Source: Aurantimicrobium minutum (lineage in GTDB: Bacteria; Actinomycetota; Actinomycetes; Actinomycetales; Microbacteriaceae). From it: DNA of 64,000 nucleotides. The translations under genes were made by a program, and so were the position numbers. Positions 56,761-59,911 of this stretch are shown here, one piece after another; the stretch's first letter is position 1; every line of letters begins with the position of its first letter. The DNA is taken from positions 186,001 through 250,000 of the forward strand of contig NZ_JARXVT010000003.1 in NCBI RefSeq assembly GCF_029892845.1, given 5' to 3'. The notes below the pieces were generated by a model. The model worked only from the letters and a program-made list of their open reading frames with translations, had not been told where the DNA came from and made no database searches.

Positions 56761-57943
<1,183 letters not shown>

Positions 57944-58030
57944 TCTCGTTTGGCTTCGTTGTCGAAACGTGGGTGATTGATCCGCAGATGGTGCGAGGGA
58001 TTACTCAAGACTTTACAGGGAAAAAGTGCG

Positions 58031-58064
58031 GCTGACCCAATCTAAAAAAGACTTACCGGTCAGC
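58031..58064. other. inverted repeat GCTGACC-N20-GGTCAGC upstream of atpB
   Basis: Two 7-bp arms (GCTGACC and GGTCAGC) 20 bases apart, within the 143 bases between the Fic gene stop and atpB start. This region must hold the atp operon promoter or the Fic terminator; the repeat has no T-run and so may be a regulatory site. Confidence 0.3.
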
Positions 58065-58086
58065 GGAATGTTCCGTCTGCGTTGGC

Positions 58087-59346
58087 CTACTGCTCCCGTG
58101 CGGGAGCCGGCGGTCCGAGACGAATTTTCTTTCCTTGCGTATCGACGCCACCCACACGATTGCTGCGTTCTGTCAACGCCACGAGAGAGAGGTACCGATC
58201 AGCAGTCCAACAGAGCAACTTACCCTTGTGGTCCTTGGTGCGGGAGAGTATTTTCGCCGCTTCAAGCTCTCCCAGTGCCCGATGCGCAGATGCCGGCGAA
58301 ACACCAAATCTGCTTGTCACAGACTCCGCAGTCAACACCGGTTCCTCTGCAAGAGTGTCAAGTATTTTGACCGTCACCGCATCACGACGCGGAGCATTGG
58401 GGACAACACCACTTTCACGCCGAAAAGAAACGAATTGCTCTGCTAGTTCTTCATCGAGTTCAGAAACGAGCTGAGCTAACTTCACAGCATTTGCTGCGGC
58501 ACGTTCCGTCGCTTCAGCAAATGCAATGACCCATTCGTCTAACAAAGCAGGTTCTTGGCGAAATCCCGTCAACCCAGAAATATATGCGTCCACATTTCCG
58601 GCAAAAACTGTGCTGATGGGAATGAGAGAGTTCCTTACCGCATCAGCTCTTCTGAGCACGGAGTGAATAAGCGCTCGACCTGTTCGACCGTTGCCATCGA
58701 CGAAGGGGTGAATGGTTTCAAACTGAGCGTGAGCAATGGCTGCCCGCACAACCGGATTCCCCTCGGTGGCGGTGATGAATTGTGCCAAGTTGTCAACAAG
58801 GCGTGGCACATCACTTTCTGGCGGCGGCACATACTGGGCCCTCAGCGGGCTCCAACCAGATCCCCCCACCCAGTTCTGTTCTGTGCGGAGCCCATATTCA
58901 AGTCGTGGCTCAATCACGTGCTGAAGCGCACACAGGTCAGCCGTTGTGATCTCGCGGGTGTGTTCCGAGAGTTCAGCGATTGCTTGTTCAGTTGCGCGAA
59001 CATTTGCCACAACATCAAGTGCGGCCTGAGTCCCCTGTTTCAACGATTCTGCGATAGCAAGTTTTTTGGGGGTGACTCGGTTACCTTCAATCCAGGATGA
59101 GGAGATGCTCTCGGAGCGGATAAGTAAATGGCTCAGGTAGCCACCACGGCTACCCACTCGCTCATCAGCGCGGGCCAAAACCACCAGTGCATCTTCTGCT
59201 GCAGATTGTGCGCGTTCACCCAGTTGAGGCAACCTCAGGCTGAGCTCGTCTGGAACATATGCCAGATAGCGCCCTGCTGCTCGATCTTTGCGACTGAGTC
59301 CACCAGTGTCTTCTGGTTGCCACAGCCTCTCTACGTAAGTACCCAT
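58087..59346 (-). CDS. Fic-family AMPylation protein with C-terminal winged helix
   Basis: A 419-residue Fic protein, class II type. The active-site loop HPFVDGNGRTGR (residues 213-224) is canonical (HPFxDGNGRxxR) and fully intact; the auto-inhibitory motif [S/T]xxxE[G/N] is present upstream as SSWIEGN (83-89), so activity is probably blocked at rest. The N-terminus (1-75) is the Fic N-terminal domain, and the C-terminus (about 335-400) is a winged-helix DNA-binding region. It sits alone between atpB and an atpI-like gene, where no such gene is expected, a sign of insertion. Target proteins are unknown. Confidence 0.9.
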   Translation of the reverse strand: MGTYVERLWQPEDTGGLSRKDRAAGRYLAYVPDELSLRLPQLGERAQSAAEDALVVLARADERVGSRGGYLSHLLIRSESISSSWIEGNRVTPKKLAIAESLKQGTQAALDVVANVRATEQAIAELSEHTREITTADLCALQHVIEPRLEYGLRTEQNWVGGSGWSPLRAQYVPPPESDVPRLVDNLAQFITATEGNPVVRAAIAHAQFETIHPFVDGNGRTGRALIHSVLRRADAVRNSLIPISTVFAGNVDAYISGLTGFRQEPALLDEWVIAFAEATERAAANAVKLAQLVSELDEELAEQFVSFRRESGVVPNAPRRDAVTVKILDTLAEEPVLTAESVTSRFGVSPASAHRALGELEAAKILSRTKDHKGKLLCWTADRYLSLVALTERSNRVGGVDTQGKKIRLGPPAPAREQ

Positions 59347-59461
59347 GGTGACTCCTGACGTAGAAAAAGGAAGCTTATATTTCTACTTTAGAGCATCTAA
59401 CCGAGAAATAGGAACACGAACCGACAGGATATTTCAAGAGCAGCGAGGCCGCTGACTGTAG

Positions 59462-59911
59462 CTAACGACTGAGGTCTGAGACGTAGGGCATGCGGGTCTT
59501 CATCACGACGACCACATCCACCACGAGCGAGGCAATGACGCCGGCGATGAGAGACAAGAACAGGGCAGTCGGGTTGATCCAGGGCTGGTCGCGCAGCGCA
59601 AGCGCTGCCACGATGAACGCCACGAACTTCAAAAGCCAGGCGCCCAGCACAATTCCGAAGAATGCCACGATGTCGAAGCGCACAGCAATCAAAATGCTCA
59701 GCGCAGTAATACCTAAGAACACCCCAGCCATAGCCGCACCAATAACTGCAGACCATGCCGCAATGGGGCCGGCAACGAGCAGGCCGATCACTCCGCCCAC
59801 CACAGCAATCGCTGCGGCGAAAGCGAAGCCATAGGCCAGCGTGCGGCGCAGCACGGGAACAGAGCTCGGAACACCGGGAGGCAGTACGCGTGAGGTTTCA
59901 GGATTAGTCAT
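59462..59911 (-). CDS. atpI-like four-helix membrane protein
   Basis: A 149-residue membrane protein with four predicted helices (about residues 25-48, 52-76, 83-106, 112-135) located just where atpI, the ATP synthase chaperone or Mg channel-like subunit, is found in actinobacteria. The sequence is typical of ATP synthase I-like proteins (VRFDIVAFFGIVLGAWLLKF) but not strong. It overlaps no neighbour; the start is 2 bases upstream of the wecA-like gene end. The Fic gene separates it from the rest of the operon. Confidence 0.65.
   Translation of the reverse strand: MTNPETSRVLPPGVPSSVPVLRRTLAYGFAFAAAIAVVGGVIGLLVAGPIAAWSAVIGAAMAGVFLGITALSILIAVRFDIVAFFGIVLGAWLLKFVAFIVAALALRDQPWINPTALFLSLIAGVIASLVVDVVVVMKTRMPYVSDLSR

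Follow-up and report, generated by a model that had tools for sequence, protein, structure and literature searches.

An intact class II Fic gene with a predicted winged helix in place of a short atpI-atpB intergenic stretch in Aurantimicrobium minutum

Introduction

Several Fic proteins of known structure or function resemble the one described here. Sofic is a single-protein anti-phage system that is thought to act by abortive infection (PMC12249575), and in Streptococcus thermophilus standalone SoFic genes have been found outside defence islands (PMC11514479). CccR of Yersinia pseudotuberculosis, a Fic-HTH protein, has been reported to bind palindromes in its own promoter and to repress its own expression (PMC9755527). 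For Coxiella Fic2, DNA binding has been reported to change the activity of the enzyme (PMC10628234). In the main text of the Sofic defence paper, none of the terms 'DNA-binding', 'helix-turn-helix', 'winged' and 'wHTH' occurs.

Here we describe a Fic gene (fic) found in a stretch of 64,000 nucleotides of the Aurantimicrobium minutum genome (the window), where it lies between the ATP synthase genes atpI and atpB.

Results

The Fic protein and its described relatives

The fic gene (58087..59346, minus strand) is an ATG-started open reading frame for a protein of 419 amino acids, which was assigned to the class II Fic AMP-transferases with a C-terminal winged helix by Pfam, alignment, structure modelling and Foldseek. 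Both Pfam Fic (64.2 bits, curated cut-off 24) and Pfam Fic_N (27.1 bits) scored above their curated cut-offs. The active motif HPFx[D/E]GN[G/K]R is present within the Fic domain in HPFVDGNGRTGR (residues 213-224; 58675..58710, minus strand), and the motif [S/T]xxxE[G/N] is present as SSWIEG (residues 83-88; 59083..59100, minus strand), whose location N-terminal to the Fic core marks class II. In an alignment of 26 sequences including the window's Fic (two of them, L053 and L055, fragments), S83, E87, H213, D217, G218, N219, G220, R221 and R224 were invariant. An earlier note on this DNA had described a complete Fic gene with intact active motif and inhibitory helix, and the reading frame, the Pfam matches and the invariant columns bear this out.

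In the AlphaFold2 model (mean pLDDT 86.9) the Fic core is followed by a C-terminal winged helix, residues about 324-381 (58204..58377, minus strand), with helices 324-331, 340-347 and 351-363 and strands 368-371 and 377-381; pLDDT is 87-96 in this block and low in the last 21 residues. Pfam HTH_IclR matched residues 325-368 with 19.7 bits, under its cut-off of 22, and Foldseek matches to Fic-HTH structures backed the winged-helix reading. The model thus has the C-terminal helix-turn-helix or winged helix of a Fic-HTH protein, and fic, judged by its sequence, encodes an intact class II Fic-wHTH protein for which AMP transfer is predicted.

The protein matched the PADLOC SoFic model along nearly the whole length of that model (E 6.7e-68, 227.7 bits, residues 29-389, model positions 8-358 of 361). 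The NCBIfam SoFic equivalog NF046030 scored 59.3 bits, far under its cut-off of 550, therefore we call the protein SoFic-like rather than SoFic proper. With SoFic (PDB 3eqx and 3zcn; E. coli Sofic 9vjc) it shares the class II fold, the N-terminal inhibitory helix and a C-terminal alpha/beta domain, and Foldseek matched it to 3eqx, 3zcn and 3zec (TMq 0.65-0.68), but identity to Shewanella SoFic is just 20-22%, and whereas E. coli Sofic is followed by the antitoxin AS1, there is no room for an AS1 gene here. These structures ranked after Mycobacterium marinum Fic (PDB 7cb8), which was both the best PDB sequence match (E 4.4e-42) and the best Foldseek match (TMq 0.84, TMt 0.89), although at 28-29% identity. 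CccR can be likened to the protein by its published description, which comprises an N-terminal Fic domain with inhibitory motif, a C-terminal HTH and promoter palindromes; it differs in being a reported secreted type VI effector (PMC9755527). Coxiella Fic2 (PDB 8cil) is likewise a class II Fic protein with a C-terminal HTH, but it is reported to be a host-directed effector and has a DUF4172 N-terminus (PMC10628234), and its fold match was low (TMq 0.47-0.50).

Codon usage, proposed in the earlier note as a check, was atypical for fic: by divergence the gene ranked 39 among the 43 open reading frames of the window, to which the comparison was limited, and its GC3 was the second-lowest of the 43, which together make a mild signal.

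Position and distribution of fic

The gene upstream of fic (59462..59911, minus strand) was designated atpI-like from its position and conservation beside atpB; it has no Pfam match. Downstream lies atpB (57044..57868, minus strand; Pfam ATP-synt_A), for which we propose a CTG start at 57868, 6 nt after AGGAG. All three genes are on the minus strand, and fic interrupts the core order of the locus, both as described before. The source genome (G000; 1.76 Mb, 12 contigs) was compared with the seven other genomes of the genus and with 22 further family loci; this junction comparison leaves aside 23 order-level genomes and six additional family genomes that had an atpB match, as well as one family genome without such a match. 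A second carrier, G004, has a nearly identical Fic (98% at the amino acid level) at the same place. In the other six genus genomes and in all 22 further family genomes atpI adjoins atpB and fic is missing there. An order with fic that was ancestral throughout the family would have spoken against the earlier note; the comparisons show the opposite, the position of fic between atpI and atpB being derived.

Counted at E up to 1e-90, close relatives turned up in 14 of 199 family genomes (a figure that includes both carriers), spread over 13 of 85 genera; beyond the genus none that was found was closer than 78% (over residues 4-259). In the flanks examined, which extended up to 6 kb and in some loci were missing on one side, no atp gene was found beside any of 19 close orthologs or 73 farther homologs; the window's own atp proteins served as queries, so diverged atp genes near the far homologs could escape. 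One ortholog, L050, has a phage integrase and a TrwC relaxase as neighbours. A cargo gene for defence or a toxin would agree with the patchy spread and with this single mobile neighbourhood.

Two origins and a defence-island context were considered and rejected. For a phage origin, no close viral copy was found (best IMG/VR match 34%; five phage records covering at most 21% of the query). The 843 plasmid records that matched were each below 60% identity, and the sole one covering the whole query was at 33%. As to a defence-island context, one of five ortholog neighbourhoods, examined by ten neighbour proteins, was clearly mobile (that of L050), the others holding ordinary or unassigned genes.

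fic replaced an intergenic stretch with a conserved hairpin

Junction alignments against the empty sites of G007 and G003 delimited a tract of about 1.40 kb (58069..59471, minus strand; edges accurate to a few nt). Compared with G007, the source genome retains the end of atpI to 59472; about 1403 nt then stand where G007 has 118 nt, and colinearity resumes from 58068. The fic tract is a replacement and not a plain insertion. The stretch that was lost carries a hairpin, CCCAGAC-NNN-GTCTGGG, which is present in all six empty sites of the genus. A terminator scan found a T-rich tail on it in five of the six, the exception being G002, and the same scan found no terminator of this type in G000 or G004. 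The description of fic as an insertion, given in the earlier note, holds with respect to its derived presence, but has to be amended because about 118 nt with a conserved terminator-like hairpin were replaced.

A general terminator scan of 57700-59700 returned a single site, inside atpB, where 2.0 were expected from shuffles, and two sites at the G007 junction, where 1.3 were expected. The case for a terminator-like hairpin thus comes from its presence in all six empty sites and not from the general scan. Outside the genus such a site was found in 2 of 22 family loci, therefore it is a feature of the genus. A search for an RNA element with Rfam gave no match in 57500-59700 up to E 1. In the carriers the scans found no terminator in the interval between atpI and atpB, so transcripts of the upstream operon and of fic are expected to continue into atp, in addition to transcription from the conserved promoter block described below. 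The earlier note had treated a promoter after fic and a transcript through fic as alternatives, a choice that these observations do not bear out.

A conserved block downstream of fic and the start of atpB

From 58068 downstream the alignment of all eight genus genomes resumes, and the conserved block starts 18 nt after fic. It contains 24 nt, CCTGTAAAGTCTTGAGTAATCCCT (57996..58019, minus strand), that are invariant in all eight and, judged by this conservation, are likely the core of the atp promoter. Since no sigma-70 consensus promoter was found in 57700-59700 or at the G007 junction, the candidate -10 element TAAAGT (58010-58015, minus strand) is proposed from conservation. The place agrees with Corynebacterium glutamicum, for which atp transcripts starting upstream of atpB have been reported (PMC3917460).

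The earlier note had confined the atp promoter to the 143 bases after fic. A conserved promoter-like block is indeed found directly after the gene, but the length of 143 nt presupposes that atpB starts with the TTG at 57943, whose frame is not kept in G004 owing to a 1-nt indel. The conserved CTG candidate at 57868 widens the gap to 218 nt.

Of 30 loci from the genus and the family (L012-L041), 28 have this CTG (57866-57868), mostly 6 nt after AGGAG; L041 differs, and L028 was cut out incorrectly. Two codons ahead of the CTG there is an in-frame ATG in L038, and six codons ahead of it an in-frame TGA in L039. From the alignment the conserved CTG seems to be the start of atpB. If true, it would be unusual for an ATP synthase gene to start with CTG across a whole family; a literature search on such a start gave nothing relevant among the matches listed. 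About 75 nt around the start (57844-57920, minus strand) are near-identical in the eight genus genomes, third codon positions included, and this conservation possibly reflects an untranslated-leader or start-site element.

Selection and exchange at the locus

Between the two carriers the fic copies differ by dS 0.119 and dN 0.008. With dN/dS at 0.06, the gene is under purifying selection. The acquisition was called recent in the earlier note, which is correct only loosely: the two species share the edges of the tract, yet their fic copies have diverged to this extent.

Synonymous divergence of fic is below that of its neighbours atpI (0.378), wecA (0.711), sua5 (0.622) and atpB (0.450). Further downstream it is 0.122 in atpE, 0.057 in atpF and 0.039 in atpH; because these genes are as low as fic or lower, low dS alone is no proof of exchange. 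In steps of 200 nt the identity of the carriers is 95.5-98.5% in the fic tract, mostly 75.5-92% upstream of it (one step 97%), 83.5-93% in atpB and 96-99.5% beyond atpB. The high identity drops at the upstream edge of the tract, extends about 230 nt beyond the downstream edge and breaks near the atpB start. The lower dS of fic compared with atpI, wecA and atpB suggests that the tract was probably exchanged between the carriers by recombination. G004 and the empty-site genome G007 are 96.5-100% alike from 57956 downward, through atpB and onward, and the atpB of G000 is divergent. Such a mosaic fits repeated homologous exchange at the atp locus within the genus. G000 and G004 came out as sisters (100/100) in a tree of the orthologs, which, with 14 of its 22 inner branches open, does not name a donor of fic.

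A palindrome upstream of fic and of its orthologs

Upstream of fic lies a 33 bp palindrome, TATTTCTCGGTTAG-atgct-CTAAAGTAGAAATA (59378..59410, minus strand), in which 11 of 14 positions pair and which we propose as the fic operator. It ends 31 nt before the start codon, a place from which it can be taken to lie within the fic promoter, and it is not followed by a T-run. In this 14-5-14 form it was equalled by 3 of 500 shuffles. A free search of the fic leader ranked another inverted repeat best, one matched by 12 of 60 shuffles, so the palindrome is notable in the fixed form only. A search of the source genome with a 21-nt pattern taken from the core and right arm of the palindrome, allowing up to two mismatches, gave a single occurrence.

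Three of the 19 ortholog loci had no fic start in the available DNA and were dropped, and L138 was left out, so that the alignment had 16 rows (the window and 15 orthologs). Of its cells 82.1% were paired, as against 64.4% after shuffling and 34-53% in slid controls; as the 33-mers had been picked by a score that rewards pairing, the percentage is inflated, and the slid controls and covariation are the safer measures. The covariation score was 0.468 compared with 0.168 for shuffled alignments, and none of 500 shuffles reached it. Ten of the 14 pairs had changed on both sides, a count also reached by 18 of 500 shuffles. When the 14-5-14 form was picked freely, nine of 17 upstream regions had a palindrome that at most 5 of 500 shuffles matched, and in L050, L133, L138 and L056 the best palindrome was elsewhere. 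L138 has a strong palindrome of its own, CTAAATCCTACTTAT-gtaa-ATAAGTGGGATTTAG, 65 nt before its fic, and a second, similar one nearer the start can be seen by eye.

Palindromes upstream of distant Fic homologs

Distant homologs were collected from 73 loci, of which nine were dropped (match not near residue 1, no start codon, or short upstream DNA); the remaining 64 count here as Fic homologs, whether or not each has a winged helix. They come from Actinomycetota and from records named Chloroflexi, Gemmatimonadetes, Acidobacteria, Cyanobacteria and Deltaproteobacteria, among others. Palindromes with at least 11 of 12 pairs preceded 32 of the 64, compared with 9 of 322 other open reading frames in the same loci (Fisher p 5e-21). 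Within 120 nt upstream, 41 of the 64 had a palindrome matched by at most one of 100 dinucleotide shuffles, and 43 of 64 beat 99 of 100 plain shuffles, as against 1 of 64 stretches inside the gene.

A second sample consisted of Fic proteins with long C-termini, for which the choice of start was cruder; after removal of ten of 34 loci without the motif and one with a short C-terminus, 7 of 23 had a significant palindrome and 6 of 23 one with at least 11 pairs. The source genome encodes two more Fic genes whose C-termini are long, at G000:C2:52990-56298 (L001) and G000:C2:278606-281830 (L004). Each has its own significant palindrome, so the genome holds several such modules; the palindromes of the two differ. 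The short Fic gene of the same genome (L003) has no significant palindrome, nor has any of eight loci with Fic genes without a long C-terminus, a small control in which two loci (L245 and L247) are not clearly short Fics. The palindrome sequences differ among the Fic relatives. The two arms change together and differ between relatives, for which the simplest reading is a dimer site evolving in step with the winged helix of the Fic protein encoded next to it. Searches of the open-licence literature listed no description of operators of this type throughout the Fic-wHTH family.

Discussion

The fic gene of A. minutum is a gene of known kind, intact and conserved, that is derived at an unusual place. 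We consider it probable that it is a horizontally acquired, self-contained SoFic/Fic-wHTH single-gene module, autorepressed and probably serving defence or growth arrest, which came to lie in the atp gap. The Fic domain would transfer AMP to a cellular target; the N-terminal helix with SSWIEG would keep the enzyme mostly inactive, and its release would lead to AMPylation. The C-terminal winged helix, as a dimer, would bind the palindrome 31 nt before the gene and so mediate self-repression. The module probably acts against phages or arrests growth. Within the ancestry of one of the carrier lineages, fic would have taken the place of the terminator-like stretch that separates atpI from atpB, and so have come to lie upstream of the atp promoter block; with this block spared, expression of ATP synthase would have stayed viable, and homologous recombination in the flanks may then have moved the tract between related species.

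That the two species share the same edges could also mean that fic was ancestral in the genus and was lost from six species. We regard this as quite unlikely, because the six empty sites have the conserved hairpin in common and their intergenic regions are colinear and almost equally long, fic is absent from the site in all 22 further family genomes, and the dS of the carriers' fic copies is below that of atpI, wecA and atpB. A selected role in the regulation of ATP synthase, with Fic sensing or AMPylating ATP synthase or an energy target, or with its operator controlling atp, would agree with the common strand, with the purifying selection and with the failure to find a terminator between fic and atpB. 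It appears very improbable nevertheless: no atp gene adjoins fic in any of the ortholog and homolog flanks examined, the conserved atp promoter block is unchanged, and the palindrome, whose core pattern occurs once in the genome, precedes fic and not atpB. The comparison of the locus and the homologs gave no evidence for an action of Fic on ATP synthase.

As to the palindrome, its arms covary as those of an RNA helix would, and a strong palindrome is found in only about half of the distant homologs, as might be expected of an attenuator or terminator hairpin or of the site of another regulator rather than an operator of Fic itself. The missing T-run argues against a terminator, and the variation of the palindromes between Fic relatives is what would be expected of a site that co-evolves with its own protein. 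The two other long Fic genes of the genome have significant palindromes of their own, the short one has none, and CccR offers a direct precedent (PMC9755527). We therefore hold a hairpin or a foreign site to be rather unlikely and prefer the reading as the operator of Fic itself.

The locus suggests that a cargo gene can settle before an essential operon when it replaces only a terminator-like stretch and spares the promoter block. The operator pattern, which bears on how such toxins may stay silent, is the part worth following. It is conceivable, although at present we would not count on it, that the Fic-wHTH proteins of several phyla are one-gene modules of toxin, built-in antitoxin and repressor with co-evolving operators, in which operator binding both silences the gene and holds the enzyme safe. 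If this were true, loss of operator binding, for example upon phage infection, would at once derepress and arm the Fic enzyme, and the sensor in SoFic defence proteins would be their C-terminal domain.
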